Below the pieces are notes generated by a model, which saw only the letters and a program-made list of their open reading frames with translations, made no database searches and was not told the origin of the DNA. Source: a virus. From it: a stretch of 29,444 nucleotides of DNA. The first letter of the stretch is position 1, and every line of letters starts with the position of its first letter. Below, piece after piece: positions 2,087-28,543 of the stretch. The translations under genes were made by a program, and so were the position numbers. The stretch lies in the IMG/VR virus record IMGVR_UViG_3300040801_005433, positions 1 to 29,444 of that record. One strand, written 5' to 3'.

Positions 2087-2254
2087 ATGTCATTCGAACA
2101 AGAGCTGGAACTTTTTGCAGGAGACCTGGAGATTGAGCTTGGTCAAAGCTTCATGAAAGAATATGAAGAGTGGGTGGCAGCCCATGAACACGAGGCACGT
2201 GACGGCAACACTGAAGAACCTGAGGGCATAGCAGCCCCGTCAGCAGCGTTTTAG
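2087..2254 (+). CDS. Small acidic hypothetical protein, 55 aa
   Basis: The start at 2087 is chosen because GGAAAG of the hairpin leader lies at the right distance. A longer frame from 2003 would overlap the preceding gene and lacks a ribosome binding site. The product is strongly acidic (many Glu) with a helical first part and a C-terminal IAAPSAAF. The codons of that tail lie inside the first copy of the repeated intergenic element, so its sequence may be dictated by the RNA/DNA element. No family recognised. Very acidic small phage proteins are often inhibitors that mimic DNA; here that is speculation. Confidence 0.65.
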   Translation: MSFEQELELFAGDLEIELGQSFMKEYEEWVAAHEHEARDGNTEEPEGIAAPSAAF

Positions 2255-2281
2255 ATGAACCAGGCAGCATAGGACCCCCCC
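2222..2281 (+). repeat. Intergenic structured element, copy A
   Basis: The segment contains AGCAGCCCCGTCAGCAGCG, then TTTTAGATGAAC, CAGGCA and a final C7 run. It matches copies C (17201) and E (28465, - strand) over some 35 nt. The stop codon of the 55-aa gene is the TAG inside TTTTAG. The outer stem is reduced to GGG pairing with CCC, and no T-run follows, so this copy is not a good intrinsic terminator. The conserved leader box seen after other copies is missing. Confidence 0.6.
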
Positions 2282-2394
2282 ACCACTAAACCTCCCCACA
2301 AAGCCCCTGACAAACCAAAACCTCCGAGACAAGAAAAAAAGAAATGCATTTCAGTTCCCTAATTAAGGCATCACCCGGGGAGACAACATCCACA

Positions 2395-2718
2395 ATGGAA
2401 ACAATGAATGTTTTTGCGATGGTTTCTTCAATCTTCGGAGTTGCTTCTATTATTGTTGGGTTTTTTCTCAAGGTGCAATCAAACATACAGCAGCTGGAGG
2501 CTCGCTTAAGGGCAGAGTTTCGCGGCGACATGGAAAAAATCTCTGTTAAAATGGATGCAGAGTTGCGCATAATCAATGATAAACTTGAAATGATAAGAGA
2601 ACTGCTCTATAGTCACACCCTCAGTTGTCCAATGCGCAACAAGCCACAACCATACATTAGCGAAACTGCTAGAAGCAAAGCAACATTACATTCCATCCGG
2701 CAAGGGGAGGATGAGTAG
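2395..2718 (+). CDS. Small single-pass membrane/coiled-coil protein
   Basis: After a short N-terminus, one hydrophobic segment (VFAMVSSIFGVASIIVGFFL) is followed by a long charged coiled coil with heptad-like spacing (QQLEARL through MIRELL) and a polar tail. The start is uncertain: ATG at 2395 has GGGGAG 12 nt upstream, ATG 2404 is also possible, and ATG 2344 would add 17 residues without a clear ribosome binding site. The topology (one membrane helix then coiled coil) is seen in phage spanin-like and holin-associated proteins and in many small unknown phage proteins. No other lysis gene is visible in the window. Assignment to lysis is only a possibility. Confidence 0.55.
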   Translation: METMNVFAMVSSIFGVASIIVGFFLKVQSNIQQLEARLRAEFRGDMEKISVKMDAELRIINDKLEMIRELLYSHTLSCPMRNKPQPYISETARSKATLHSIRQGEDE

Positions 2719-2835
2719 TGTTCCATTAATTTCCATGTTCCACAAGCTGCGGAACACAAAAAGCAGACATTTGTCTATAATTACAGCAATTTATCAGCAA
2801 CCCGATAAAGAAAGAAGCAGAGGGGAAAAATCACA

Positions 2836-3249
2836 ATGGCATTCAATATTAAGCCGAAAACGCAGAACAAGACAGGACGTTTTTCAAAACACACATCGGA
2901 TGCATCAGTCACCCCCATCAGGGTACCCAACGAGCCTGCCAAAGCCCTGACAGAAACAACACTCATTTACGATAGACCGCCGGAAGTAGCAGAATTATTG
3001 ACAGAATTACGATGCCTTATTGGAGCATCGATGATAAGCCTACGTGGAATATCAGACCCCCTCGAATTGACAAGAGCCATAGCATCCATTTCCAAGTCCA
3101 TTGCTGTTGCTGTAAACTTCGAAGACAAGGCATCAAATGACAATGACGCAGAAGCAACAGTAGCCAAAATGATTAGAGCAGAAATGGATTCAATTGCAAC
3201 CAGCGGTATTGCAATGCTGCCAGAAAGGAAGAAGAACAATGAAGAATAA
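2836..3249 (+). CDS. Hypothetical protein, candidate small terminase subunit
   Basis: This 137-aa protein has a basic, low-complexity N-terminus (NIKPKTQNKTGRFSKHT) followed by a mainly helical region from about residue 48. AGGGGA at 2821-2826 lies 9 nt upstream of ATG. It sits two genes before the large terminase, the position often held by the DNA-recognising small terminase, and its length is in range. No helix-turn-helix is obvious by eye, so the call rests on position alone. It overlaps the next gene by 11 nt, indicating translational coupling. In the 117 nt before it there is a GTTCC/GGAAC inverted repeat (2738-2755) and an isolated TATAAT (2776) without a good -35 box. Confidence 0.55.
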   Translation: MAFNIKPKTQNKTGRFSKHTSDASVTPIRVPNEPAKALTETTLIYDRPPEVAELLTELRCLIGASMISLRGISDPLELTRAIASISKSIAVAVNFEDKASNDNDAEATVAKMIRAEMDSIATSGIAMLPERKKNNEE

Positions 3250-3679
3250 AGAATCACTATACATCATAACAAAAGCACTGCCAGTGCACCTGCCATTCAT
3301 CTACAACTCATTTGTGCGCTCAAAAACTCAACAGGACAAGACACCGCACATCCGACGCAAAGAATACAAATGTATGCTTGAACATACCTTTGGCACCATC
3401 ATGTCCAATGATAAGACGGAATGCTTTGTTGCCTGTGACCCTGAGGACCCATCACAACTATTCGGATGGATTGCCTTCATTGACGACAATGTGATTTGGG
3501 CTCATGTTAAACTTGCCTTCCGGAAAAAGTATGGACTAGCCCAATCATTGTTTGACAAATTTGAGAATTCGCTTGACAAGGGCAAAACACGATACTTTTT
3601 ATTTTATTCAAATTACTATAAAAAGAAAAAGGTATCATACGTTCAAACCCCAGCACCATGCATGGCAACGTACCTGTAA
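3239..3679 (+). CDS. GNAT-like phage protein upstream of terminase
   Basis: The 146-aa product contains the pattern FGWIAFIDDNVIWAHVKLAF followed by RKKYGLAQSLF, which resembles motif A of GNAT acetyltransferases (a beta strand, then R/Q-x-x-G-x-A/G binding acetyl-CoA pyrophosphate). The glycine loop is degenerate (RKKYGLA), so catalytic activity is uncertain. Similar GNAT-like proteins are found next to terminase genes in some short-tailed phages. The start overlaps the end of the preceding gene by 11 nt, and the stop is 1 nt before the terminase start, so the three genes form a coupled unit. The C-terminal third is Lys/Tyr-rich. Confidence 0.6.
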   Translation: MKNKESLYIITKALPVHLPFIYNSFVRSKTQQDKTPHIRRKEYKCMLEHTFGTIMSNDKTECFVACDPEDPSQLFGWIAFIDDNVIWAHVKLAFRKKYGLAQSLFDKFENSLDKGKTRYFLFYSNYYKKKKVSYVQTPAPCMATYL

Positions 3680-3680
3680 C

Positions 3681-5033
3681 ATGAGCATTCTTGATCAATT
3701 GACGGAGGAGCAGGCATCATACATTTATGCCATGGACTCCAACGGTCGACCAGAGCAGATTGTGGGTTACATTGCTCCACGTGATAGTGGCAAAACCTAC
3801 GGTGCCCTATTATACGCAATCTACGTTGTGCTTACGCATCCAAACATTCGGGTGCGTTACATTGCCCCAACCTATCGCCAGGCATGTGACACTGCCCTGC
3901 CTATCCTGACGGACATACTCAACAAATTTGGTTTAAACAAATCCATGGAGGTGCTGACAGGATTGCCTGGTTTAAAGTATCCGCTGGGTGATAACCTGAT
4001 TCAAATCTATGGAGCAGACCAAGATAAACTTCATGATAGATTCCGTGGTCCTCACAACACACAACTCATCATCATCGATGAAGCACAGGAATGGGAATCG
4101 GACATTGACAAACTCATCAACCGCGTTCTCATTCACACGCTCACAGACACAGGGCGCATCATAATCATGGGCACACCGGGAGATACTGCGGACACGTTCT
4201 TTCATAAGGCAACAACAAATCGGATTCCATACGTGCGCACAATCCAGGGAACACCACTCTGTAATCCCCACACCTACACGCGTGTTAAGGAAAGGATGGA
4301 CAAAGCCAAGCGGGCAAATCCAAACATTGCTGAGGAACCATGGTATCAACGAGAGTTCTTGGGACAATGGGTTGCCGACGATAGAAGAAGAGTCTACAAT
4401 TACAACGACTTCAATCTAACCAGCGTCATCCCGGCAGCCAAGGACATCATCTTAGGAATTGACTTCGGATACAATGACCCAACAGCATTCACCCTATGCT
4501 TTTCAACCGGACATGAACTCTATTACGTCGATGCCAAAGAACAGACAGAAATGTTGCTTCAGAACCACATTGAAATTATGACAACGTACATGAATGAGTT
4601 CCCGGACATCTATCTAGTGTGCGACCCGGGTGGAACATCCAAGGCATTGATTGAAGAATTGCGACGAAACCATGACATCCCTCTAATACCGGCAGTTAAG
4701 GTGGACAAGCTAGGAAAGATTGCCTCATGGAACAAAGACGCGTCCTTGGGCATAATTAAAATCATTGACAGCGAATCTAACTTGTTCCGGAAAAAGACAG
4801 ATAACCTAGTCTGGAGAACAGTTGGAGGAAATGTCAAAATGACACCGGATGACCATGTTAATGATGCCGGTCTATACGCCTACAACTTTTGGAAACAAAA
4901 TCTATACACACCCAAGGAAGAGGAAGTAGAAAAACTAACCCCACAACAAGCAAAAGAACTTAAGATTCAGAAATACATGGACAAACTAAGCCAACCACCC
5001 AAGAAGCCATTGGGTTTTAAAAGGAGTTATTAA
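3681..5033 (+). CDS. terL: Large terminase subunit (TerL)
   Basis: This is the ATP-driven DNA packaging motor, docking on the portal and cutting concatemers. In the 450-aa product, the Walker A motif PRDSGKT lies at 33-39, Walker B plus catalytic Glu LIIIDEAQE at 129-137, and the coupling motif IIMGTPG at 161-167. The C-terminal RNase H-like nuclease is marked by Asp261 (GIDFGYNDP), Asp315 (VCDPGG) and the Asp cluster at 390-395 (DDHVND). The start at 3681 follows the GNAT-like stop by 1 nt. An upstream extension to 3552 would overlap that gene fully and is rejected. The portal gene follows after 2 nt, so the two are translationally coupled. All hallmark residues are present. Confidence 0.95.
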   Translation: MSILDQLTEEQASYIYAMDSNGRPEQIVGYIAPRDSGKTYGALLYAIYVVLTHPNIRVRYIAPTYRQACDTALPILTDILNKFGLNKSMEVLTGLPGLKYPLGDNLIQIYGADQDKLHDRFRGPHNTQLIIIDEAQEWESDIDKLINRVLIHTLTDTGRIIIMGTPGDTADTFFHKATTNRIPYVRTIQGTPLCNPHTYTRVKERMDKAKRANPNIAEEPWYQREFLGQWVADDRRRVYNYNDFNLTSVIPAAKDIILGIDFGYNDPTAFTLCFSTGHELYYVDAKEQTEMLLQNHIEIMTTYMNEFPDIYLVCDPGGTSKALIEELRRNHDIPLIPAVKVDKLGKIASWNKDASLGIIKIIDSESNLFRKKTDNLVWRTVGGNVKMTPDDHVNDAGLYAYNFWKQNLYTPKEEEVEKLTPQQAKELKIQKYMDKLSQPPKKPLGFKRSY

Positions 5034-5035
5034 AC

Positions 5036-6844
5036 ATGTCGACATACTGGTACGATAAGGAATTGGAGAGTTGCACGAAGGCAGAGTTAGCCTGGACGCT
5101 TTATGAACATCTATACAAAACACAAACACCCAGACTGGACAGGTGGCAGCGCTACACCTCACAATACAACGAAGAGCCCTGCTATGGATTCTCACCACTG
5201 TCGGCGCCATTGAACCACTTCAACCTATTCGAGAATGAAACACCGTCATACAACGTGACAGCAATCTGTGTTGATACCTTAACTTCACGTCTTGCAGCAA
5301 ATGACCCATCCTACAAAATCATCACAACGGAAGGTCCTGAGTCCTTGCAAATGATTGCGTCCCAATTGGAGCAGCTAGCAACGGGCATCATGCACTCATG
5401 CCATGGGTCAGCAGAAACCGCGCATGCTCTGAGGGATTGCTTCATCTATGGAATCGGTTATGTCCGGACCTACATTGATAATCAACAGATCTGCATTAAG
5501 CGCAAGCATCCGGCGCATGTTTTTGCCGACAACTATGCCGACTGCAATCCACAAACAATCTACATTGTCAACTACATTTCGAGAGAAGAGTTAATTAAAC
5601 AATTCCCAGACAAGAAGGAAGCAATCCTGACGCTTAACGCGTTTCGTGGAAGAGAAGAAGAGGTGGCAGCTGATGGTGATAACATTGGCGCCATCCCAGA
5701 TCTGATTGAGGTGTTGGAAGCCTACAAGCTTGGGACCCAAGAAAACCCGGGCTGTTATGTTTGCTGTGCCGGCAAGACGTGCCTGATTGATGTGGAGTAT
5801 ACCAAGCAACACTTCCCAGTTGTTCCAATTCGATTTGAGCATCCAATCAATGGCTATTATTCAAAAGGCTTGGCTGCCAGGCTGCGAGACATTCAGGTAC
5901 AAATTGACATGATTACGGATCTGATTGGCAAGAACATTGACATGTGGTCAATGCCCTACATGCTGATCGATCGTTCTACAAAGCTAGATCAAGAGGATAC
6001 GTGGGTGTCGAATGAATACGGGCGCTTCCTTAGGTTTACAGGGCAACCGCCAGTGCACGTCAAGAACGAGGGCATCAGCGAGCAGGTCATTCGTTATTTG
6101 GGCGAGCTATACAACAAGGCTTTTGAGATTGCCAGGCTGTCACAACTAGCAGCGGGTGGTAGAAAGCCTGCAGGCATTGACAGTGGGATTGCATTGCGGA
6201 CGTATCACGACATTGAAACGCAAGGATTTGCAGATCTATCCAAGCGATACTATAACTTCTTTTCGGAGGTGACCAAATGTGCTTTGTCCTGCGCAGGAGA
6301 TTTGGCAAAATCCACGCCAGGCAAGAAAGTAAAAACAATCTACAATCACAACAATACGGACGTCATTAAAGAGATCCCATTGAGCGTATACAACAAGCTT
6401 GATCAAAGCTCCTACGTCATCCGCGCCTACAATGGTTCGAACCTTCCCAACACTCCAGCAGCCAAGCTTCAAATGGTAAGGGAACTCTTACGTGATGGAA
6501 TCTATGACCCCAAGGAAGCCCGGGAAGCATTGGACATGCCGGACATCGAAAAGAACATCAGCATTGAAACAGCAAATGTCAACTACATTAAGAGCACCAT
6601 TGAAAAGATGATTGAGACCAGCGAATACATTAGACCTGAACCACTGTCCGACCTAGCCTATGCTAGCCGGATTGCTAAGTCATACTACCTTAACATGCAA
6701 TTGAAAGATGAACCAGATGAGACATCGCTCAACTTGCTGGAAACATACGTACGTGAATGTGAAGACTTGATGGAACAAATGGCACCCCCAGCACCTCCAA
6801 TGCCACAGGGTGCACCTCAGGGCGGACCACCAATGCCACAATAA
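5036..6844 (+). CDS. Portal protein
   Basis: The 602-aa length, position after the large terminase, and the early segment SYNVTAICVDTLTSRLAAND (about 71-90) are typical of dodecameric phage portals, which form the head vertex for DNA packaging and tail attachment. Mid-protein, a run of charged helices (DIQVQIDMITDLIGKNIDMW) is typical of the clip/stem region. The C-terminus (about 580-602) is Pro/Gln/Gly/Met-rich (MAPPAPPMPQGAP) and probably disordered. The acidic scaffold gene follows, which supports the assignment. There are no signs of truncation. Confidence 0.92.
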   Translation: MSTYWYDKELESCTKAELAWTLYEHLYKTQTPRLDRWQRYTSQYNEEPCYGFSPLSAPLNHFNLFENETPSYNVTAICVDTLTSRLAANDPSYKIITTEGPESLQMIASQLEQLATGIMHSCHGSAETAHALRDCFIYGIGYVRTYIDNQQICIKRKHPAHVFADNYADCNPQTIYIVNYISREELIKQFPDKKEAILTLNAFRGREEEVAADGDNIGAIPDLIEVLEAYKLGTQENPGCYVCCAGKTCLIDVEYTKQHFPVVPIRFEHPINGYYSKGLAARLRDIQVQIDMITDLIGKNIDMWSMPYMLIDRSTKLDQEDTWVSNEYGRFLRFTGQPPVHVKNEGISEQVIRYLGELYNKAFEIARLSQLAAGGRKPAGIDSGIALRTYHDIETQGFADLSKRYYNFFSEVTKCALSCAGDLAKSTPGKKVKTIYNHNNTDVIKEIPLSVYNKLDQSSYVIRAYNGSNLPNTPAAKLQMVRELLRDGIYDPKEAREALDMPDIEKNISIETANVNYIKSTIEKMIETSEYIRPEPLSDLAYASRIAKSYYLNMQLKDEPDETSLNLLETYVRECEDLMEQMAPPAPPMPQGAPQGGPPMPQ

Positions 6845-6890
6845 CAGCTCCGCAAGACTAAAGACAATGGAGCATAAAGGAGAAAAAACA

Positions 6891-7862: not shown

Positions 7863-7868
7863 AAAAAC

Positions 7869-7991
7869 ATGTTTAAATCATACATAATGTATGAGCCACT
7901 GCTTCAATCCGTTAAAGCCCGAAGGTTATCTCGATCGAGTGAGAAGCGACAGCCATCGAAGAAAAAGTTACAACGACTTTTAAGCGCTTAG
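7869..7991 (+). CDS. Possible small basic protein, 40 aa
   Basis: A short open frame lies between scaffold and capsid: MFKSYIMYEPLLQ followed by a strongly basic Arg/Lys/Ser-rich part ending in KKKLQRLLSA. GGAAG (7853-7857) lies 11 nt upstream, a weak site. A second ATG is at 7887. The frame contains a perfect 10-bp palindrome CTCGATCGAG (7930-7939) and ends over a second one, TAAGCGCTTA (7981-7990), so the stretch may instead be a regulatory RNA leader of the capsid gene. There is no family recognition. Confidence 0.35.
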   Translation: MFKSYIMYEPLLQSVKARRLSRSSEKRQPSKKKLQRLLSA

Positions 7992-8041
7992 TCAGCACCA
8001 ACACCAAATCATTCATTTAAATCTCAGGAGAGAAAAACAAA

Positions 8042-9283: not shown

Positions 9284-9309
9284 CGATAATTAACGAATTT
9301 GGTTACTAG

Positions 9310-9346
9310 CCCGCCTGATTAGCCTGTGCTAGCAGGCGGGTTTTTT
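9310..9346 (+). terminator. Strong intrinsic terminator after major capsid gene
   Basis: CCCGCCTG (9310-9317) pairs perfectly with CAGGCGGG (9333-9340), with a small inner AGC/GCT stem, and a T6 run (9341-9346) follows. It ends or attenuates transcription 27 nt after the capsid stop codon. The sequence differs from the repeated intergenic elements. Confidence 0.9.
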
Positions 9347-9361
9347 ATAGGAGACTGATTA

Positions 9362-9547
9362 ATGGAAGACGAAAAGAAAAAAGATGGACTGGTCATTGCT
9401 CTAGGAATGGGTCCTAAGAAGGGCGAAGGGGAGGAAGAAGAAGAGAGCGAAGGGGTCAATCACAAAGAACTGGCAGAGGAGATGCTGTCGGCTATCAAAG
9501 ATGATGACGCTGATGCCCTGGCAAAGTTTCTTAAGAACATAATGTAA
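9362..9547 (+). CDS. Small acidic protein, 61 aa
   Basis: The protein has a short KKKDGLVIALGMGPKKG segment, a run of Glu (EGEEEEESEG) and a helical C-terminus with an acidic patch (AIKDDDADALAKFLKNIM). AGGAG lies 9 nt upstream. Its position between capsid and head-tail adaptor, flanked by two terminators, suggests a minor head or assembly factor, but no family is recognised. Being bracketed by the terminators at 9310 and 9560, it is expected at a lower level than capsid unless read-through or a separate promoter serves it. Confidence 0.7.
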   Translation: MEDEKKKDGLVIALGMGPKKGEGEEEEESEGVNHKELAEEMLSAIKDDDADALAKFLKNIM

Positions 9548-9559
9548 CATCAAAACGTG

Positions 9560-9623
9560 GGGGTCCCTGCCTGCTCAGAATCGCTTTTAAGAATAACCAG
9601 GCATCATAGGGACCCCTTTTTTT
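9560..9623 (+). terminator. Intergenic structured element, copy B (intrinsic terminator)
   Basis: The outer stem GGGGTCCCT (9560-9568) pairs perfectly with AGGGACCCC (9608-9616), followed by T7. An inner stem GCCTG (9569-9573) pairs with CAGGC (9598-9602). The 24-nt apical loop TCAGAATCGCTTTTAAG is shared with copy D at 27463, although a terminator needs no fixed loop. The similarity to D begins upstream at CATCAA, right after the stop codon. Confidence 0.8.
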
Positions 9624-9624
9624 A

Positions 9625-9654
9625 AACGCTGTTAGAGAGCCTCTGAGGGAGAAA
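9625..9654 (+). promoter_or_regulatory. Conserved leader box, copy L1
   Basis: AACGCTGTTAGAGAGCCTCT followed by GAGGGAGA lies between copy B and the ATG at 9658. Related boxes precede the genes at 17298, 19420, 27550 and, on the - strand, 28433. The 3' part supplies the ribosome binding site, but the AACGCT-TAGAGAG part is conserved beyond what translation needs. Confidence 0.6.
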
Positions 9655-9657
9655 TAA

Positions 9658-10657: not shown

Positions 10658-10670
10658 GAGATTTAAAACA

Positions 10671-13847: not shown

Positions 13848-13858
13848 GGGAACAAATA

Positions 13859-16654: not shown

Positions 16655-16665
16655 GAGATTTTAAA

Positions 16666-17196
16666 ATGCCAGATCGAAACAAGAAACGAGATGAAGAATT
16701 GCTTAAAAAACTTTTTGCGTACAAAAAAAAGAAACAAATGGCGCGACCCGGAAAGGTCGACAGTGTCATCGATGATGTTCTTGGACCGCTGAGAGATTCA
16801 AAGAGCCCACTGATGGATGACCTTCCAAGAAACGTTGCCAAGGAAGAGCTCAAGCCATTGCGTGATGCCGGCGATCGATCAGATCTGCTTTTTCCGTTGA
16901 CAAGAAAGGGTTCATTCCTAGGAGAGCCAATGGAAGAGCTGGATTCGCTGCGCAGAGCCGGCAAGGAGGATCCATTGCTCAACGAACTGAGAGGGCGCGA
17001 TCAAGCAATTGACGACCTTGAGAGTGAGGAAACAACAGACGTGCTCCGGAGCCTAATTGGTGGTGGTGGGGGACTGATGAGCGGCAGACGTTCAGCCCCA
17101 GATGATTTGGGCACAATGAGAGCGCCATCGTCAGGCAGGAGTCAAAGAAACAGGCAAGACTACCTTAGGTTCCTTAAGGCGTTGTCAGACATCTAA
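16666..17196 (+). CDS. Charged repeat protein, 176 aa
   Basis: No family is recognised. The N-terminus is very basic (RNKKRDEELLKKLF, KKKKQ). Residues 37-108 hold three imperfect copies of a PLR-D-(x)-LL unit: DVLGPLRDSKSPLMDDL (37-53), EELKPLRDAGDRSDLLFPL (60-78) and EELDSLRRAGKEDPLLNEL (90-108). A Gly-rich stretch (GGGGGLMSG, about 132-140) and a basic Ser/Arg segment precede the C-terminus. TAGGAG lies just upstream, overlapping the preceding gene's stop. Lying between ejection-type genes, it is probably a virion protein that may bind DNA or a partner through the repeats. Confidence 0.65.
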   Translation: MPDRNKKRDEELLKKLFAYKKKKQMARPGKVDSVIDDVLGPLRDSKSPLMDDLPRNVAKEELKPLRDAGDRSDLLFPLTRKGSFLGEPMEELDSLRRAGKEDPLLNELRGRDQAIDDLESEETTDVLRSLIGGGGGLMSGRRSAPDDLGTMRAPSSGRSQRNRQDYLRFLKALSDI

Positions 17197-17200
17197 TCCT

Positions 17201-17265
17201 AGGGGTCTAGCAGCCCCATCAGCAACGTTTTAAATGAACAAGGCATCCTATCCATCCTCTTTTTT
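17201..17265 (+). repeat. Intergenic structured element, copy C
   Basis: Starting 4 nt after the stop codon, AGGGGTCTAGCAGCCCCATC continues with AGCAACGTTTTAAATGAAC, AAGGCATC and a final T6. It is nearly the same as copy A and, over its first 25 nt, as copy E. The outer stem is weak here (AGGG with TCCT), although the T-run remains. Confidence 0.65.
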
Positions 17266-17267
17266 AA

Positions 17268-17293
17268 AAGGCTCTGGGAGGCTCTGAGGAGAG
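17268..17293 (+). promoter_or_regulatory. Conserved leader box, copy L2
   Basis: AGGCTCTGGGAGGCTCTGAG followed by GAGAGA precedes the ATG at 17298. It contains GGCTCTG twice and keeps the GGCTCTGAGGAGA core of the other leader boxes. Confidence 0.55.
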
Positions 17294-17297
17294 AAAA

Positions 17298-18824
17298 ATG
17301 AACGACGACGAATTCTATCCATTCGAAGAAGATGAGGAAGAGCCACTAGATCCCATGGGGCAAACTGTAGATCCACGGGCTGCAGCTGCTATCGAAGCCG
17401 AGGAGCTAGCAACATCCGGTCAGTTTGCGGGGCGCCCCATAGACACTATTAACGCTGCCAGGGAAGTGTTACGCCAAAGAAGCGCTAATGCTGCCGAATT
17501 GCTTGGGTCGGTCAGCAAGGGTAGCGCGTTAATGGGTGGTGGATGGAGTCCAACATCCGGGATTAGTTTAAAGGAATACCAAGATGCTGTACGGCAAAAG
17601 GAAATTTCCGAGAAATTTATTAAAGATATCGATAACGTTATAGCAAACAAGCAAAGTTTTGAAGACGTCGCTGAAAGGGAGGAACGCAAGAAGTTCAACA
17701 CCTCAATTGAGCAAAGCGTTGATGACCCTCTATCTGGCATGTCATCGTACGAAGCAATGCCGAATATACCGGAAAGACCTTTGCCAAACATGTCATCCTA
17801 CAATAAAGCGCTGGAAGAATTGCAACAACAACAACAGACAAGAATTGAAAAGCTTGGTGGCAAAGGGAAGAAACTTAAGGAAGCATACGACAAGGGCTTC
17901 GAAGCATATAACAATGCCATAAAAACATTAAACAACTTCAAGATTGATCCCGACAGTGTTGCCAACAGCATGGGTAGAACTCAAACAATAATGATGGGCA
18001 TTGCAATGGGACTCGAACGCGCCGGCAATTTCATCTCCAAAAACCCCAATGGACCAACCATGGTTGCTGACCTTTTGGCACGTGAACAAAAGAAAGATTT
18101 GGAAAGGCAGAAGTTTCAATATCAACAACAAATCCAACAAGTTGCGCGAACAGAACAAGACCTTGATCGAGCTGCCAGGCAATGGGATGATTTAGAAAAA
18201 CAATTGGACCAATCACAAAAGGCGGCTATGAAGCTTCAATTGATGGATTTAGCAACAAAACATCCAGGAGCGCAACTTGATCTTGCCAAGACCGCAGCAC
18301 AAATTGATGCGATTAATACACAAAACGTTTTTAATCAGGCATCTATGTCCACTAAGGCAGCCGACATTGGTCCACCACCTCCGGATAAGATCTTGGAAAA
18401 GATGTCAACTAGAAAGAATGTGCTTAGCGAAGTTGGCAACCTTATTAAAGAGGCGAAAGAACTGGATAAGGAAGCAGTTGCCTACCCTGTTCAGAAATAT
18501 TGGCCAAACTCGGATGCTGCCAGATATCGCAAAAAACTTGAACTGTTCTCGGTTGAATTGAGAAAGGCAAAAGAATCCGGCGTTATGACCGAACAAGATT
18601 TCAAAAGATACAGCACACTACTAGATGCAAAAACAATAACAACCAGCGAAATCATTAAACGCCTTAGTGATCTGGAAAGGACCCAACAAAAAGCATACGA
18701 TTCAACGTTGAAGGTTTTTAGCAAAAAGTTTCCTTCACTGCCATACTACCTTCAAGACGAACAAGACAAGGAGTTGCCCAGGCAGCCTCTTAAGGTACCA
18801 AGTAAAAAAAAAACTCAAAAATAA
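17298..18824 (+). CDS. Internal virion (ejection) protein, 508-aa form
   Basis: An acidic N-terminus (DDEFYPFEEDEEEPLDP) is followed by Ala/Gly-rich and coiled-coil regions. Long Gln-rich helices lie at about 255-340 (QKFQYQQQIQQVARTEQ, AARQWDDLEKQLDQS), as in proteins ejected with phage DNA to form the trans-periplasmic channel. The gene ends at TAA 18822 shortly after ten A (18804-18813), read as Lys-Lys-Lys-Thr. A -1 shift on this run continues into the transglycosylase frame. So this is likely the short product of a two-product gene, although a homopolymer error in the assembly could also make the two frames one. Confidence 0.75.
   Translation: MNDDEFYPFEEDEEEPLDPMGQTVDPRAAAAIEAEELATSGQFAGRPIDTINAAREVLRQRSANAAELLGSVSKGSALMGGGWSPTSGISLKEYQDAVRQKEISEKFIKDIDNVIANKQSFEDVAEREERKKFNTSIEQSVDDPLSGMSSYEAMPNIPERPLPNMSSYNKALEELQQQQQTRIEKLGGKGKKLKEAYDKGFEAYNNAIKTLNNFKIDPDSVANSMGRTQTIMMGIAMGLERAGNFISKNPNGPTMVADLLAREQKKDLERQKFQYQQQIQQVARTEQDLDRAARQWDDLEKQLDQSQKAAMKLQLMDLATKHPGAQLDLAKTAAQIDAINTQNVFNQASMSTKAADIGPPPPDKILEKMSTRKNVLSEVGNLIKEAKELDKEAVAYPVQKYWPNSDAARYRKKLELFSVELRKAKESGVMTEQDFKRYSTLLDAKTITTSEIIKRLSDLERTQQKAYDSTLKVFSKKFPSLPYYLQDEQDKELPRQPLKVPSKKKTQK
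18804..18813 (+). other. Slippery A10 run (candidate -1 frameshift or slippage site)
   Basis: Ten consecutive A at the end of the 508-aa gene. A -1 ribosomal shift, or one extra A from RNA polymerase slippage, moves reading into the transglycosylase frame. The frame-0 stop codon follows 9 nt later. Confidence 0.6.
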
Positions 18825-19384: not shown

Positions 19385-19411
19385 AAGACGCTTACAGAGC
19401 CTCGAGGAGAG
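19385..19411 (+). promoter_or_regulatory. Conserved leader box, copy L3
   Basis: AAGACGCTTACAGAGCCTCG leading into AGGAGAG lies between the transglycosylase stop and the ATG at 19420. It matches L1 and L5 (ACGCTTA-AGAG). Here it appears without the larger structured element, so the two can be used separately. Confidence 0.6.
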
Positions 19412-19419
19412 AATAAATA

Positions 19420-22080
19420 ATGCCCGAGAAGAAGAAAGTCCAGTACCAACTTCAGCCCGATGGTACTGTCAATGTCAAGAAGAATGGTGAATACTTTTCC
19501 TTGCCTGAAGAGGATGCTTTTAAGGCAATTGGTCAGGGGATTGTTGAGGCAGTAAGCGATGAAGAGGCTTACCGGTATGACTACACGAAAAGGCTAGAAG
19601 AGGAGGCATCGGAGTCTCCGATTAGATCTGCACTTGAGGGCGCTGCCAGGTCGATCACCATGGGTGCCAGTGACTGGGTGTTGGGTAATACCATCTATGA
19701 TACAAAAGAAGAAAGAGATGCTGCCCTAGCAAGAAGCGAAACGCTTGCCGGTGGTATTGGCGAGATTGGGGGAATGTTTGTACCAACCGGTGTTGCAGGA
19801 TTGGCAGGAAAGGGAATCAAGAGCATTAATGCCACCAGCAAAGCAGCCAGAGCGGCTAGGGCAGCTGCCGGGTTTGCAGCAGAGGGTACAATTGCTAGCG
19901 CTGGACAGGAGATTGCCAAGGAGGCTTATGGCGCCGAAGGAAGCCTAGGCAACGTTGCAACGGGTGCTGGATTATCGGCAGCAGTTGGTGGCACAATGGC
20001 TACCATCGGAAAACTGACCAAGTATGGTCTAGACAAGGCAACGAAAAGTGTGGTCACCAAAAAGGAGGTCTTAGCCAAAGGTACCGGTAAACGCTACGGC
20101 ACTTCGACAAAAGAGCTCCAAAAGATTCTGGACAAAGATGGAGAGGCTGCGCTAAGGAAAAGACTTGAGGACCTGGAAAAAGCAAACATAGCCCGGGGAA
20201 AGCCGGCTGTAAATGTGTATACACCAGCTGATGTCGTAGAAAAAGAAACAGCCGAATTCGCACAAGAGATGGCAAGCTCGTTTAGCCAGATGGCTAGCAA
20301 AGCAAAACTTGCCGCAAAAAACGCATTTAAAAGTCCGAAAATGTCCGCTGTTGAATTTCGTCCTGCGGGTCAGCGTGGCTTACCATACAATAAAAACGTG
20401 CATGTCGATTGGTCCCTTCAAGCCAAAGGAGAAGCTGCCAAGAGCTTTAAAGCAGCAATCGACGTTGATAAGGCTTTGCCACCATGGGCAGCGCTGGCAG
20501 GTGGTTTTTATTATGGCGGATTGCCTGGAATTGCTGCTGGCTTTGTTGCGCGAAAACTTGCCAAGGTTGGTATCGACAAGCTGGCAGGAATGACCATCAA
20601 AGAGTCAACAATTAACGCAATTGCCAAAACCTACAGCCTAGCATCCCAGGGAGCAGCATGGGCAACTGCGGTTCTAGCAGCCCCAAAAGCCATAGATTCC
20701 AACAACTTAAAGGAAACAAGAGCCTGGCTTGACCTTCAGGATAATACTGACCCCAACGTTGCAGCAATGAAGTTTGCTGACAGCATTGGCAACCTTGAAA
20801 ATGCCATTCACTATTCTTTTAGTCCAAATAAAGTAATAAATGATTTTGCCAATCCGGATAACATCAACAAAAAAAACCTGGATGTTTTAAGTGTCGTCCA
20901 ACCCGAAATCTATCAGGACCTTAAGGAATACGCAAACTCAATCAACGTTGAGGGCATAACCGGAAAGAAGCTTGACAAACTCAACCTGATCAGGTCGCAC
21001 GTCATAACATCCGATTACACCCCAGCGCTAACAAACCCAAAATCAGCATCAGACATTGCCAAGATAATGAACATCACAAAAGCAATGGACACGATGTTTA
21101 CGCCAAGCGTGATGGAGAACATAGAGATTCTTAAGGCAAGAAACAAGATTAAAAAAACGCTTGAACAACTTCCACCAAACGTTAAAGACCAATTGATGGG
21201 AATGAGCCAAACGTATGCTGCCGGTGAAGAGCCGGATGTCTATCAGGTTCAGAGTTTGGACGAGGCAGCATTCACTTCTTCCGGAATTAAGAATGCCTCC
21301 TCAATGGCAAAGCAAATGTCCCAACTTCGCATTGGACCTTCACAGAAGAAACTAACCGGTTTAGGATTCCTCAATGCTTTTTCTTCCGGAGCAGAACCTT
21401 CACAGCAAGGAAAGATTGCGGAAGGCTTAGCCAAGCAAATCATCAGTAACAAGGACAGCAGGTTAAAATCACTTGACGTAAAGCCTCTTTTAAAATCACA
21501 AAAGATTAAACTACCCAATGATTTCAAGGAGATAGTGAACGGCATTGATCCTGATGTTATTGCTGGCTATGCGCAAGGCGCAGCAACCATCGCAGATCCA
21601 AATGAGGTGGAGAATCCTTCCGAACTTGGCAACAAGGCAGCAGATCAATTGGGGCTGTTGAAAGAATACTCTGTGAAGGTCAGGGATAAGAAAAGGTTCA
21701 ACGAAATTGCGCAGTCAATCTTGGATCCAAGAACAATCCTGTCACGTTTGGATAACAACAGTTCAACCATGGATGACGTTGTGATTTTCAACCAGCTATT
21801 TCCGATTGCCGCGCGGCAGATAACCTTTTCGGTGAATGAACTTTTGGATGAACATTTCAGCAACATCGCAAACGGCAAAAAGTCCCTATTTACTAGGAAA
21901 GTCAAAAACAACCTAGCAATTTGGTCACCACTAGGAAATAGACCCCAACAACAGTCACCCATGGGAGCACCACCAGCGCAACAGCAACCGACAGCAGACG
22001 TCGACAAAACCGTGGCAAGGTCAGAAATGCCAAACATGAACGAAACGCCAATTGAAAGGGCTTCGAAAAACATTTCTTAG
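19420..22080 (+). CDS. Large internal virion/ejection protein, 886 aa
   Basis: Two hydrophobic, Gly/Ala-rich zones stand out: about 105-205 (AGGIGEIGGMFVPTGVAGLAG, AARAARAAAGFAAEG and AAVGGTMATIG) and about 350-425 (PPWAALAGGFYYGGLPGIAA and AAWATAVLAAP). These could insert into membranes, as expected of proteins that leave the virion to form the DNA-ejection channel. The remainder is helical and charged; the last 60 residues are Gln/Pro-rich and probably disordered. Position and size parallel T7 gp15/gp16-type genes, but no sequence family is claimed. The ribosome binding site is in leader box L3. Confidence 0.7.
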   Translation: MPEKKKVQYQLQPDGTVNVKKNGEYFSLPEEDAFKAIGQGIVEAVSDEEAYRYDYTKRLEEEASESPIRSALEGAARSITMGASDWVLGNTIYDTKEERDAALARSETLAGGIGEIGGMFVPTGVAGLAGKGIKSINATSKAARAARAAAGFAAEGTIASAGQEIAKEAYGAEGSLGNVATGAGLSAAVGGTMATIGKLTKYGLDKATKSVVTKKEVLAKGTGKRYGTSTKELQKILDKDGEAALRKRLEDLEKANIARGKPAVNVYTPADVVEKETAEFAQEMASSFSQMASKAKLAAKNAFKSPKMSAVEFRPAGQRGLPYNKNVHVDWSLQAKGEAAKSFKAAIDVDKALPPWAALAGGFYYGGLPGIAAGFVARKLAKVGIDKLAGMTIKESTINAIAKTYSLASQGAAWATAVLAAPKAIDSNNLKETRAWLDLQDNTDPNVAAMKFADSIGNLENAIHYSFSPNKVINDFANPDNINKKNLDVLSVVQPEIYQDLKEYANSINVEGITGKKLDKLNLIRSHVITSDYTPALTNPKSASDIAKIMNITKAMDTMFTPSVMENIEILKARNKIKKTLEQLPPNVKDQLMGMSQTYAAGEEPDVYQVQSLDEAAFTSSGIKNASSMAKQMSQLRIGPSQKKLTGLGFLNAFSSGAEPSQQGKIAEGLAKQIISNKDSRLKSLDVKPLLKSQKIKLPNDFKEIVNGIDPDVIAGYAQGAATIADPNEVENPSELGNKAADQLGLLKEYSVKVRDKKRFNEIAQSILDPRTILSRLDNNSSTMDDVVIFNQLFPIAARQITFSVNELLDEHFSNIANGKKSLFTRKVKNNLAIWSPLGNRPQQQSPMGAPPAQQQPTADVDKTVARSEMPNMNETPIERASKNIS

Positions 22081-22094
22081 AGGAGAAAGTATCA

Positions 22095-22475: not shown

Positions 22476-22484
22476 TCATTTCTT

Positions 22485-25400: not shown

Positions 25401-25913
25401 CGGACCGAGGGAGGTGGCAGGACAGTAGGTGAAATAGCAAGAGGCTATTATTCATCCAGCCCATCAACGCTAGATTACAACGGAACCCTTAATGTTCCTG
25501 CAGGTGGAAGAGGCGCTGTTGCGTGTGATGTCCTAATTGAACCATCCTCAACCGGTTCAAGCGACCTTTATGTTTGGGCAATACACGATGACAAAACAGC
25601 CAGCGACCACATTATGCTTAGGGCAGATGCTACAACAGGTCTACCTATTCTTGACATAAACGCAACAGCCGGCACACCAGGAGCAATCACCGGCTCAACA
25701 AACATCTGCGATGGCATAAATCATAGCCTGACGGTGAACTATGTCAAGAATAATGTCCAAATGAAGGTCGATGGGGTGGTTGAGGGAACCATAACCAGCG
25801 TTACGATCCCCGATCACCTCAACCACATTACGCTCGGAACGGACAAATCGGGCAACAATCACCTTGAGGGTCTTCTCTGGAATTTCAAGGTGTATAACAA
25901 AAACAACCTATAA
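22485..25913 (+). CDS. Tail fibre with LamG and carbohydrate-binding modules
   Basis: A receptor-binding type protein of 1142 aa. A LamG/concanavalin-like domain lies at about 130-300 (WQIDTFNSGGGLFLRAYHNW, GNWYHVLVAANRDGLGYLYV). About 485-670 (EERTNLINYSNEMNNW ending TYVWGMQTEISSTPSSLIPT) is a carbohydrate-binding-like module widespread in phage fibres. A second LamG-like unit at about 683-815 (AVMCDVLI, ICDGTIHSITLVYQNNSLLL) is duplicated at about 1005-1138 (AVACDVLI, ICDGINHSLTVNYVKNNV), with a second binding-like module at about 825-975. The N-terminus (RKSRLNGSSARLGRPRLRW) probably attaches to the tail. The start is weakly supported: only AGG is upstream of ATG 22485. Confidence 0.8.
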   Translation: MAAEPIRKSRLNGSSARLGRPRLRWKFDDAGISPPIFQVLDLQGANVPSIDNLEQTITLNSTSISPDFLYTADNATISSWTATVGTNLSIIGSGTYPGIDAGSPLFGSGDTSIQFQGTPGNTTGTRNGKVYAAPNTSSGDITTEDYILEGVFEYQAPDPGATSSPLAKWRFTGGSFVGWQIDTFNSGGGLFLRAYHNWNTADYALVQTSDGIANGNWYHVLVAANRDGLGYLYVNGVLAASASYVSSDGLSATSNVALTIGSISDGQANTQHSEYGGKVAYAAMWKQSDWLSASPQAELDLVVSERFAKMSGIYPQLSTGAELPITSTRSTAETINAWDTFGEDEDTYTVGPNWMEIWRTRDGKTDRDLDVVKSNSFPNSEDFDGAEWNTFQLTIDSNPTVISASADNLQFQSLDFDIGSPTLTASFAIGEATPTTASALTNATYEREVAGAVTVNSTAPSNGYIRAETKRDGSDVLFTGLLIEEERTNLINYSNEMNNWVKVSAGISSNVATSPGLAVDADGIVANSSESTHYIRNDITVQSNVTNTTSGYFKKGSLDWIYLAARGGTRGLYFNIANGTVGFIENAIDYGIEDVGNGWYYCWFSWQDNNTSSNVRVYPSEGDQDQIFSGDDSTVQTYVWGMQTEISSTPSSLIPTFGTTATRSKDRLTYAGGDKNINNADRTGAVMCDVLIKNKGSNPSYLFTLLNNTTSTDFISVYADATTGVPIVETSAAAGNPGVVTGSTDICDGTIHSITLVYQNNSLLLYVDGAQEGTEDTSVTIPDNLNEISLGSDKDGNNQLNGDVSDFKIYRTGVVDVVYRNIQADALVGSAVNNRHGIFTDLTPSDDWQHLFVAYVKPGNRSAVRIQSQNQAAANVWAQFKLDGTETQASLTSGNLTGIATVEAVEDGFYKCTVPYNGGTANHRHTIQAIDDAEVDDVTYLGDGSTPDIYIAIMQHDYSESSTGRTVSDTYVRTEGGGRTVGEIARGYYSSSPSTLDYNGTLNVPAGGRGAVACDVLIEPSSTGSSDLYVWAIHDDKTASDHIMLRADATTGLPILDINATAGTPGAITGSTNICDGINHSLTVNYVKNNVQMKVDGVVEGTITSVTIPDHLNHITLGTDKSGNNHLEGLLWNFKVYNKNNL

Positions 25914-25925
25914 AGGAGAAACAAA

Positions 25926-26324
25926 ATGAGCGCGCTGAGCAACCACCTGGAGGACGCCCTAATGGCGGCAGTATACAAGGGCACTTCCTACACTACACCG
26001 ACAAACACCTACATTGCCTTGTTTAACAGCAACCCTGGCGAGGACAACAGCGGCACAGAATGTACAGGCTCTGGTTACGCACGCTATGAAATGGCATCAG
26101 GAGATTGGACAGCCATTAGTAATGGCTCCATCAGTAATGCCACAAACGTCAATTTCCCAGCAGCAACAGGTGTTGATTGGGGCACCATCAGCCATGTCGG
26201 AATTTACGACGCATCAACTGCTGGCAACCTTCTTCATTACGGTGCCCTGAATAGTTCCGTAACTGTTGAGAATAGCGATGTTTTTGTGTTTGCAGCCAAC
26301 CAATTGACTCTCACATTGGAATAA
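25926..26324 (+). CDS. Phage tail/virion protein, 132 aa
   Basis: The pattern TYIALFNSNPGEDNSGTECT, then GYARYEM, NATNVNFPAATGVDWGTISH, VGIYDASTAGNLLHYGAL and a C-terminal ANQLTLTLE is a recurring layout of small phage structural proteins encoded near tail fibres. The beta-rich content fits a virion component, but its precise place is not known. AAAGGAG lies 7 nt upstream of ATG. The next gene starts 6 nt after the stop. Confidence 0.7.
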   Translation: MSALSNHLEDALMAAVYKGTSYTTPTNTYIALFNSNPGEDNSGTECTGSGYARYEMASGDWTAISNGSISNATNVNFPAATGVDWGTISHVGIYDASTAGNLLHYGALNSSVTVENSDVFVFAANQLTLTLE

Positions 26325-26330
26325 GGGCAG

Positions 26331-27449
26331 ATGGCTTTAACAATCTCGTTTGTTAACAGCGGCATCACCAGCAGCACCGTTTCTTCGCTGACGGTACCAT
26401 TCGTCAATGCAGCGGAAGGAGACACGCTATACGCAACGGCTTATACACGTGATTCATCGGCTTCTCCAGCTGGGGTAACATGGGCTGGTAATGCTATGAT
26501 AGAAATCACCAGTTCGCGTGCTTCAGATGGTGATTTTGGTCCAAGAATGACAACCTACTATCACTACGTCACAGCCTCGCTTTCAAGCAGCGCAATTCTC
26601 ACCTTGGATGATTCCATGGATTATCCGCGCCTAGAACTCATTCGTGTGTCTTCAGCTGCTGGCGCAAGGGTGCTACCAATTGCCTCCAAGATTTTTGAGA
26701 TATTTCCTGGAAGTGGCGGAACGGTAACTGCTGGAGATTATGACACAGCGCTTGATGAGGGGGAAGACATAGCAGTCGTGGCTAACTTTTTCGGGATGGT
26801 ACCATTCACCATTGAGTCGTTCAACGGAGTAGGCTGGGGGACTGATGCCGTCCTTGATTTTAACATCATAGACACCAATCTCCGGGGCAACGCATTTTAC
26901 GTCGACAGCAGCAGGAATTACAATTACATTACATCGCTTGGTGCGAAGGACAACATCTTTGGGACAACACCGGAAAGACCCTTCCTATACCCAAAGGTTA
27001 GATTTTCAGTCAATGCTGGCGATTATGGTTACATCCTTACAACATTCCAGGTCGCACCCAACGAACTAACTGCCAGCTCTTCACCGACAGGTTCTGGTCA
27101 AGTAACCGGACAGGCAGGTAGACAGACATTCAGAACCGGTTCTTATCTTGGAACATCAACGCTAGCATCCTTAGGATCCATTTCAGCGCAAGCAGATCCA
27201 TTTGTTGGAGAGTCAACATTAATCTCGCTTGGCTCAAGAAGTCAACAAACATCATTAACAGGTGTTGGTTCGTTGTCATCCAATGGGCAGGATGTTGCCA
27301 ACAGGCAAGGTTCAGCAGATCTTGGTGGCACAGGATCAATTGATGTTAGTGGTCGCATCTTCTTCCCGCCATCATTCTTTGAACGAAACTTCCGCTCATT
27401 GAACCAACGCTATGCCAAACTCTACAAGAGGGTGGTTCGTCCACTGTAG
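26331..27449 (+). CDS. Putative fibre/structural protein, 372 aa
   Basis: The first two-thirds are beta-rich (ISFVNSGITSSTVSSLTVPF, VTWAGNAMIEITSS, LRGNAFYVDSSRNYNYITSL). The last third has repeated short Gly/Ser/Leu units (TASSSPTGSGQVTGQ, STLASLGSISAQ, STLISLGSRSQQ, TGVGSLSSNGQ, LGGTGSIDVSGR), spaced by about 15 to 20 residues, ending in a basic tail (RYAKLYKRVVRPL). The repeats suggest a shaft of stacked beta turns. Grouped with the LamG fibre gene, it is probably a second fibre or fibre-associated protein. The ribosome binding site is weak (AAGG only). Confidence 0.6.
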   Translation: MALTISFVNSGITSSTVSSLTVPFVNAAEGDTLYATAYTRDSSASPAGVTWAGNAMIEITSSRASDGDFGPRMTTYYHYVTASLSSSAILTLDDSMDYPRLELIRVSSAAGARVLPIASKIFEIFPGSGGTVTAGDYDTALDEGEDIAVVANFFGMVPFTIESFNGVGWGTDAVLDFNIIDTNLRGNAFYVDSSRNYNYITSLGAKDNIFGTTPERPFLYPKVRFSVNAGDYGYILTTFQVAPNELTASSSPTGSGQVTGQAGRQTFRTGSYLGTSTLASLGSISAQADPFVGESTLISLGSRSQQTSLTGVGSLSSNGQDVANRQGSADLGGTGSIDVSGRIFFPPSFFERNFRSLNQRYAKLYKRVVRPL

Positions 27450-27462
27450 CATCAACGTGAAG

Positions 27463-27520
27463 GGGTCTCAGCCTGCTCAGAATCGTTTTTAATAACAACC
27501 TGGCACTATGATGACCCCTT
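27463..27520 (+). repeat. Intergenic structured element, copy D
   Basis: GGGGTC (27463-27468) pairs with GACCCC (27513-27518); an inner GCC/GGC pairing surrounds TCAGAATCGTTTTTAATAAC, nearly the same loop as in copy B. The similarity to B begins at CATCAA right after the stop codon of the fibre gene. No long T-run follows. Confidence 0.65.
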
Positions 27521-27527
27521 AGATGAA

Positions 27528-27548
27528 AAAGGCTCCTGGAGGCTCTGA
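27528..27548 (+). promoter_or_regulatory. Conserved leader box, copy L4
   Basis: AAAGGCTCCTGGAGGCTCTG precedes the ATG at 27550. It resembles L2 (GGCTC-TGGAGGCTCTGA), and GGAGG (27538-27542) is 7 nt from the start codon. The frame upstream (ATG 27523) would run through this box and is not favoured. Confidence 0.55.
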
Positions 27549-27549
27549 A

Positions 27550-28068
27550 ATGAAAAAGTGTGAACGTTGTGAAGGGGAATTCAACGAGCGCTGCTTTGAC
27601 GGCAAGGATACCTGTCTTTGTTGCACACGAATTGATATTGACCTTAGGTTCCTTGAATCCGTTATGCCCTCATTGGCAGCGCAGATTGTTGAACTTTTAA
27701 ATCTCAACATCAGGGAAGGCAGTTTTAGCAACATTGCCGAGTGGGCAGAGATTTGGAAGGGCATCAAATTGGGCACCATTCAGCAGATGGAAGCAGAATT
27801 AATCTTTTACGTTAGGCGCATGTTCATAAACAAGTTTGAGGCAAGAATATATTCCAAGGAGAATAAGAGGTTGAAGTTGGATTTAAACAACATTTTCAAG
27901 TACTTGAACCAGGAGCGTCCAAACAAAGACAGCGAAATCTTTAACGTTGTTCCGTTAAGAAATTATGATTTACTTGATCCATTCATGTACAAAAAGGCTG
28001 TTCATTATTCCAACTGGACATTTCGCCACCGAGATCACATCATAGGCTCAGAAGAAGAGGAGAGTTGA
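27550..28068 (+). CDS. Zinc-finger-type hypothetical protein, 172 aa
   Basis: CxxC at residues 4-7 (KKCERCEGEF) and CLCC at 22-25 can bind zinc in an N-terminal finger of about 25 residues. The rest is helical and charged, with no recognised domain (LAAQIVELLNLNIREGSFS, IYSKENKRLKLDLNNIFKYL). ATG 27550 is preferred over 27523 because of its ribosome binding site. Element D and leader L4 precede the gene. It ends in a Glu-rich tail that overlaps the 3' end of the convergent - strand gene by 34 nt. The finger and its distance from the structural genes suggest nucleic-acid binding, but this is inference. Confidence 0.65.
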   Translation: MKKCERCEGEFNERCFDGKDTCLCCTRIDIDLRFLESVMPSLAAQIVELLNLNIREGSFSNIAEWAEIWKGIKLGTIQQMEAELIFYVRRMFINKFEARIYSKENKRLKLDLNNIFKYLNQERPNKDSEIFNVVPLRNYDLLDPFMYKKAVHYSNWTFRHRDHIIGSEEEES

Positions 28069-28433
28069 TTCTCGGCTTCTAGTGCTTTTTTCTCAGCCTC
28101 AATGCGGGCTCTGTTTGCCCTCCATCTGGCTAGGCTGGCTTCAAGTTCCTTTTCGTATTGAGGGCGTACCTTGTCAGCAAAATCCCTAATGATTTTCATT
28201 TCTTCTTCTGGCATCCAAAAATCACCGGCAAGCTGACATTCATTGCACAGCAGCAAATGACCATCACGCATCTTTTGATCCATGCGGAAGTCATCCCTTC
28301 CTTTTCTTTCCCCACAGGTTAGACACACTTTTGTTTTTTGATTTTTTCTTAAAAAATAATGACACTTCGGATAGCGAAATGCCCGCTTGCCTTTTTCAAT
28401 TGAGGTCTTTTTTTCTTGTTTATCTTTTTTCAT
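28035..28433 (-). CDS. Zinc-ribbon protein, 132 aa
   Basis: On the - strand, C37-x-x-C40 (VCLTCGERKGRDDF) and C63-x-x-C66 (LLCNECQ) with the GRDDF and DGH spacing form a short zinc ribbon typical of phage proteins that accompany HNH enzymes. The N-terminus is Lys-rich; residues 84-125 form a coiled coil (YEKELEASLARWRANRAR, EAEKKALEAENQ). Leader box L5 and element E lie directly upstream. The stop overlaps the end of the convergent + strand gene by 34 nt. A DNA-binding or HNH-helper role is inferred from the neighbouring HNH gene. Confidence 0.7.
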   Translation of the reverse strand: MKKDKQEKKTSIEKGKRAFRYPKCHYFLRKNQKTKVCLTCGERKGRDDFRMDQKMRDGHLLLCNECQLAGDFWMPEEEMKIIRDFADKVRPQYEKELEASLARWRANRARIEAEKKALEAENQLSSSSEPMM

Positions 28434-28455
28434 CTGAGAGCCTCTCTAAGCGTTT
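28434..28455 (-). promoter_or_regulatory. Conserved leader box, copy L5
   Basis: Read on the - strand, AACGCTTAGAGAGGCTCTCA precedes the ATG (28433). GAGAG and CTCTC form a short inverted repeat that includes the likely ribosome binding site GAGAGG. It matches L1 and L3. Confidence 0.6.
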
Positions 28456-28464
28456 TTTGTTTAT

Positions 28465-28524
28465 GGGGGTGCCTGTGGTGCCAGGTTCATCTAAAACGCT
28501 GCCGACAAGCCTGCTAGACCCCTA
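28465..28524 (-). repeat. Intergenic structured element, copy E
   Basis: Read on the - strand: GGGGTCTAGCAGGCTTGTCG, then GCAGCGTTTTAGATGAAC, CTGGCACC and a final ACCCCC. The first 13 nt equal copy C, and CATCnAATC upstream is shared as well. Outer GGGGT/ACCCC and inner CAGG/CCTG pairings are possible. It lies between two - strand genes, downstream of the one at 28544, so the orientation follows the genes as it does for the four + strand copies. Confidence 0.65.
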
Positions 28525-28543
28525 CGATTGGATGTTGATGTCC

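Follow-up and report, generated by a model that had tools for sequence, protein, structure and literature searches.

A five-copy repeated element oriented with the genes of virus record IMGVR_UViG_3300040801_005433 and its possible role at late-module borders

The virus record IMGVR_UViG_3300040801_005433 carries a repeated element of ~75 nucleotides (nt) in five copies, designated A to E. The window analysed is the entire 29,444-base record; records of this type are often fragments. Its genes include those for a terminase, a P22-like portal, a major head protein, an SU10-type adaptor, Gp80 and a laminin-G tail protein. Intergenic DNA accounts for 1,696 of the 29,444 bases (5.8%) according to a hand-made gene list, which was used for all intergenic shares given below. 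No gene for transfer RNA (tRNA) or transfer-messenger RNA (tmRNA) was detected in a scan of the window. The five copies belong to two subclasses, A/C/E and B/D, and are located as follows.

Copy A, 2213..2285, + strand: A/C/E subclass; core 2240-2266; contains the stop codon (2252-2254) of the open reading frame (ORF) 2087-2254
Copy B, 9547..9622, + strand: B/D subclass; core 9575-9603; strong predicted arm hairpin, followed by T7
Copy C, 17189..17264, + strand: A/C/E subclass; core 17219-17245; outer stem weak and containing two G-U pairs; T6 follows
Copy D, 27449..27524, + strand: B/D subclass; core 27477-27505; strong predicted hairpin without a T-run
Copy E, 28460..28535, - strand: A/C/E subclass; core 28479-28505; shares its strand with the minus-strand genes; outer stem of 5 base pairs (bp) without a T-run

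A leave-one-out analysis confirmed that the five-copy repeated element is real. When a profile built from four copies was run over the whole window with nhmmer, each held-out copy was recovered at E values of 2e-7 to 2e-17 (A, 8.8e-12; B, 1.8e-15; C, 1.2e-15; D, 1.9e-7; E, 1.6e-17). Across the five runs, background matches had E values of 0.18-0.73 at best, and no sixth copy was found in the window. A covariance model of all five copies recovered the same five, and the next match in the window reached only an E value of 0.027. A hand-written pattern derived from the five copies occurs at exactly five places in the window and at none in 100 shuffles; this test is circular, and the leave-one-out analysis was therefore relied on instead. 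The places, strands and subclasses given in the preliminary description of this DNA all hold: CGTTTTAnATGAACnnGGCA is exact in A, C and E, and B and D are 78% identical over 76 nt.

All five copies, including E, have the same orientation as the genes that flank them, an arrangement with a chance of 1 in 32 under random orientation. Copies B, C, D and E are 99%, 89%, 99% and 100% intergenic, respectively, and copy A is 42% intergenic; an intergenic share of 40% or more is found in ~6% of random 76-base windows. The earlier proposal that the element lies between genes on their strand thus stands for the strand of all five copies and for the intergenic location of B to E (89-100%), but copy A shares bases with the last codons of a 55-codon ORF. 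In this copy, 42 of the 73 bases fall within the 3' end of ORF 2087-2254, whose TAG stop codon is part of the TTTTAG of the element. In B to E, the modelled element begins at the upstream stop codon or at most 9 nt from it, and the next start codon lies ~31-41 nt beyond the end of the 3' arm. The copies are found at module borders, the names of which are partly inferred: A lies ahead of the packaging and head genes, B separates the head genes from the neck/tail genes, C has tail-spike-like genes on one side and internal-protein-like genes on the other, and D follows the fibre genes. A strong ordinary terminator (9300-9345, + strand; z-score -4.6) is positioned right after the major head gene, ~200 nt 5' of copy B.

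The best conserved part of the element is a core of 27-29 nt (TCRGNANCG-TTTTA-AAC-GGCA) between the arms GGGGTC and (G)ACCCC. Averaged over pairs of copies, identity is 80% in the 29 columns of the core and 72% and 70% in the 5' and 3' arms, respectively, compared with 42% in the spacer between the core and the 3' arm (columns 61-68) and 56% and 34% in the flanks. This profile delimits an element with clear edges. The copies have diverged to 56-74% identity with the core still kept. CGTTTTAnATGAACnnGGCA is exact in A, C and E (3 matches, versus 0.05 expected in shuffles). The preliminary description needs correction for GGGGTCTAGCAG, which C and E alone carry without change and which has three mismatches in A. 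The counterpart of GGGGTCTAGCAG in B and D is a shorter variant. B and D also contain a 2-nt deletion 5' of the core and a 2-nt insertion within it, so that the GGGG-to-GGCA distance is 44 nt in both subclasses. T-runs follow B (T7) and C (T6) and are absent from A, D and E.

Predicted folds differ among the copies. B and D each fold as one long hairpin, with z-scores of -3.2 and -3.9, respectively, relative to shuffled sequence. A and C fold as small local hairpins, and a weak hairpin, GUUU/GAAC, is predicted for all members of the A/C/E subclass and for neither B nor D. The preliminary description placed the best outer stem in B, with 9 bp followed by T7; the strong hairpin and T7 are present, and the stem has 10 bp in the predicted fold. 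The consensus (alifold) energy of the five copies is better than that of 486 of 500 column shuffles and was reached by the other 14. For the named 12-pair structure, the share of paired cells is 90%, versus 37-63% with the partners slid. Wobble pairs are uninformative on the strand, since three sense G-U cells are matched by three A-C cells that would pair on the other strand.

Our preferred reading, held tentatively, is that of a hairpin-type element at late-module borders that would control the transcript end or read-through and present a sequence-specific loop to a putative factor. Each copy would be transcribed with the surrounding genes and would act as RNA at the module border. The GGGGTC/GACCCC arms would pair into a hairpin: a strong one in B and D, a partial one in C and E and almost none in A. 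The core would form an apical loop of 27-29 nt recognised by a sequence-specific factor, which is probably phage-encoded. The hairpin would end, pause or expose the transcript after the upstream module, and the loop factor would set the extent of transcription into the next module. Because stem strength differs among the copies, read-through would differ as well.

Several features argue for this reading. All five copies match their flanking genes in orientation, the modelled element in B to E begins at or close to the upstream stop codon, and the copies border gene modules. The z-scores of B and D and the consensus energy also speak for a hairpin. The arms are conserved and complementary, with a variable stretch setting the 3' arm off from the core, an arrangement more in keeping with a hairpin than with a plain promoter. 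T-runs after B and C and strong stems in two copies, B and D, are compatible with an effect on transcript ends. Conservation peaks in the core, which suggests that something reads it. The preliminary description had also held that simple intrinsic termination does not explain the conservation of the loop, and this view is upheld because a T-run follows B and C only and conservation is higher in the core than in the arms. A bolder form of the proposal, which we consider unlikely, is a new lineage-restricted cis RNA in which a phage factor would recognise the loop at each border between late modules, the polymerase would be re-licensed or stopped module by module and arm strength would set module output.

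Several results weigh against a hairpin that controls transcript ends. The folds of A, C and E are no better than those of shuffled sequence (z-scores of 0.5, -0.7 and -0.6, respectively). No compensatory changes are observed among the five sequences, where power is low, and the covariation score was reached by 448 of 500 shuffles. In duplex folding, the cognate whole arms rank 52 of 120 among swapped combinations, the cognate outer and inner stems rank 94 and 100, and the middle stretch alone reaches rank 12; with five sequences and nearly invariant arms, the arm-swap and covariation tests have little power. Three of the five copies have no T-run, and the ordinary terminator ~200 nt upstream of B has a better z-score (-4.6) than any copy. 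No loop-binding factor was found, and the predicted model of the sole candidate gene modelled (28544-28864) was uninformative. The covariance-model analysis suggested in the preliminary description thus gives weak support for pairing and leans against the term 'structured'. Overall, the support for this term is mixed: the B and D folds, the consensus energy and the sliding test favour it, the lack of covariation, the null arm-swap result and the unremarkable folds of A, C and E do not, and the pairing stays a prediction.

In the main competing reading, the element is recognised as DNA and serves as a phage-specific late promoter or operator; this role was absent from the preliminary list, and we regard it as rather unlikely. 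GGGGTC and CGYTTTTA, 16-18 bp apart, would be bound by a phage sigma factor, an activator-modified host polymerase or a phage polymerase, and transcription of the downstream module would start there. Every copy precedes a gene module, the distance to the start codon is similar in B to E (31-41 nt), and conservation lies chiefly in the primary sequence, with arms that show no covariation. The strong terminator ahead of B would make a new promoter useful. Moreover, no convincing sigma-70 site is present between the late modules. The best sigma-70-like sites in intergenic or leader DNA are at 1148 (12/12), 1494 (9/12) and 28912 on the minus strand (11/12), all outside the late region, and the remaining sites that match 10 or 11 of 12 positions (2585, 13238-, 13426, 22219 and 25747-) are inside ORFs. 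However, no -10 or single-subunit-polymerase promoter signature is recognisable by eye, the spacing of the two supposed boxes differs by 2 bp between the subclasses, and the complementary 3' arm beyond the variable stretch is left unexplained. A T7-like promoter was dropped from consideration, as the stretch 3' of GGCA is the least conserved. Sequence alone cannot separate a late promoter from termination/read-through control.

An RNA processing site, at which RNase III or another endonuclease would split the mRNAs of adjacent modules, is quite unlikely. Its placement on the sense strand between co-directional genes and the strong B and D stems would suit such a site, but RNase III sites require a long double helix, and A and C cannot form a long duplex; none of the five copies has a long uninterrupted helix. 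Spread of a selfish or mobile small repeat, similar to a miniature inverted-repeat transposable element (MITE) or associated with homing, is highly doubtful. The element is repeated, has complementary ends and lies near HNH and zinc-finger-like genes, and D and E precede short genes, one of which is endonuclease-like. In opposition to mobility, all five copies are in gene orientation, the core is kept despite 56-74% identity, target duplications are not seen by eye, and no convincing other copy was found in the IMG/VR or genome-contig pattern scans. An RNA of the HK022 put type, which would bind RNA polymerase itself and confer terminator resistance, was among the roles listed earlier and is very improbable: the length is similar (~75 versus ~70 nt) and a sigma-70-like promoter lies hundreds of bases upstream of A and E on the same strand, but the copies share no two-stem-loop fold, and B, C and D are deep in the late region. 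Two further candidates were rejected. A shared C-terminal peptide fails because the reading frame common to A, C and E stands in a different register to the upstream gene in C than in E, and a duplicated gene-plus-element unit at D and E fails because the two downstream proteins do not align (E value, 2.9).

The occurrence of the element in relatives, another check proposed in the preliminary description, was not borne out: no homologue was found in phage records, IMG/VR, genome contigs or sampled genomes, and no usable relatives of the virus were found. Megablast of bases 1-25000 against phage records revealed no relative, and tblastn gave no match for the terminase and capsid at 1e-5 or for the portal at an E value of ≤1. 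At E values of ≤10 and ≤0.5, the terminase matched solely T5-like and other distant terminases (20-35% identity among the matches listed). IMG/VR scans with the capsid, terminase and portal yielded no confirmed relative, nor did genome contigs searched with the terminase, and a five-row terminase alignment led to 80 IMG/VR loci at 20-27% identity. Gp80 has matches in 185 phage records. It was rejected as a lineage marker because the six of these that were examined, five of them from the top six rows, are phages that differ in organisation.

Four pattern scans of IMG/VR for the element returned 0, 1, 4 and 2 stretches, and a scan of genome contigs returned at least 117. The single stretch of one IMG/VR scan is an ordinary terminator with a TAGCAG loop adjoining a tape-measure-like gene, and the two-stretch scan gave no covariance-model match at an E value of ≤10. 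Among the matches listed from the four-stretch IMG/VR scan and the genome-contig scan, 118 of 121 fall in frames that run for 100 codons or more without a stop, which points to chance matches in coding DNA. One of the other three was inspected and lies at a gene boundary with a Shine-Dalgarno sequence and ATG. The covariance model, run over 91, 82 and 37 loci, gave best E values of 0.045, 0.0045 and 0.002, respectively, all in distant or pattern-selected loci; the best matches of the 82- and 37-locus runs are inside open frames of 105 and 380 codons and were rejected. In whole genomes, the model gave weak matches in four of five at an E value of ≤1 (best, 0.41). At ≤0.001, it matched none of 369 genomes and two of 291, and these two matches were discarded as they are inside ORFs of 564 and 379 codons. 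Blastn of copies E and B against phage records at a distant setting gave best E values of 0.7 and 4, respectively. The family of the element may be wider than these searches show. No description of the element was found in the literature searched, and absence from print is not claimed.

Additional repeated features surround the copies. Gene leaders that resemble CGCTKTTAGAGAGCCTCTGAGGAG, each with a small hairpin, are present at five places.

9630-9657 (after B), + strand: CGCTKTTAGAGAGCCTCTGAGGAG-like gene leader
17266-17297, + strand: CGCTKTTAGAGAGCCTCTGAGGAG-like gene leader
19385-19419, + strand: CGCTKTTAGAGAGCCTCTGAGGAG-like gene leader
27527-27549, + strand: CGCTKTTAGAGAGCCTCTGAGGAG-like gene leader
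28434-28450, - strand: CGCTKTTAGAGAGCCTCTGAGGAG-like gene leader

The leader after B contains a short hairpin (AGAG-AGC-CTCT) and the Shine-Dalgarno sequence GAGGGAG. CGCTKTTAGAGAGCCTCTGAGGAG-like leaders precede the ATG codons at 17298, 27550 and 28433(-) and also the ATG at 19420, which has no element; the leader is a module separate from the five-copy element. Its CGCTnTTA start loosely recalls boxA. At the left end, AACAGGGCAAAGCCCGGAAAG-like leaders are observed on the + strand at 1185-1217, 1531-1565 and 2056-2086, before the genes at 1218, 1566 and 2087. Each forms a short hairpin directly 5' of the Shine-Dalgarno sequence, with the stems GGGC/GCCC, GAGG/CCTC and GGGC/GCCC, respectively, so pairing is kept though the stem differs. 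A CCCCRCGTAATCATTCAGTTCTTTTTT-like repeat, which may be a regulator site, is found on the + strand at 139-172, 1113-1146 and 1448-1481. The last two copies are just 5' of the sigma-70-like promoters TTGACA-16-TATAAT (1148) and TTGAAT-16-TACAAT (1494). On the minus strand, a candidate factor gene (28544-28864) directly 5' of copy E encodes a lysine-rich protein of 106 residues with no family assignment, and a near-consensus promoter (TTGACA-16-TACAAT, 28885-28912) lies ahead of it. The gene at 28782-29276 (-) encodes an HNH endonuclease; matches of its domain to the HNH of IscB and Cas9d were also obtained and fall short of the curated cut-off.

If the proposed control of transcript ends or read-through is correct, the element would be a compact device for balancing head, tail and other proteins where no late promoter set is evident. 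It would point to an RNA- or DNA-binding factor in a virus without close relatives in the phage records searched. If the element is instead a promoter, the late-transcription signal of this virus group would be defined.

An Rfam 15 scan of the window at an E value of ≤5 gave two matches of the long non-coding RNA (lncRNA) type below the gathering score, neither of them at the copies. Among known systems, intrinsic (Rho-independent) terminators resemble the element as GC-rich intergenic inverted repeats, and B combines a strong hairpin with T7. They differ from it in that the element has a conserved loop of 27-29 nt, a stable GC-rich stem in B and D but not in A, C and E, and a T-run in two of the five copies. 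Lambda-type nut sites (boxA/boxB) are repeated RNA sites in phage operons. The loop CGYTTTTAA loosely recalls boxA, but no stable boxB-like hairpin is common to the five copies, and B to D are not near promoters. RNase III processing sites of T7 are repeated on the sense strand between phage genes; the long duplex of such sites is absent in A and C. Phage-specific late promoters of the P2, T4 and T7 types are repeated, oriented and located upstream of gene modules. Unlike these promoters, the element has a longer conserved stretch and complementary arms, and no matching consensus was seen. The put element of HK022 is ~70 nt long with two stem-loops and occurs in two copies near early promoters (PMC9378689). 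Put and the present element are both sense-strand cis elements of ~70 nt repeated within one phage genome, but the copies here lack the two-stem-loop fold and lie at module borders instead of early promoters. We assign the element to the repeated cis-acting control elements of phages.

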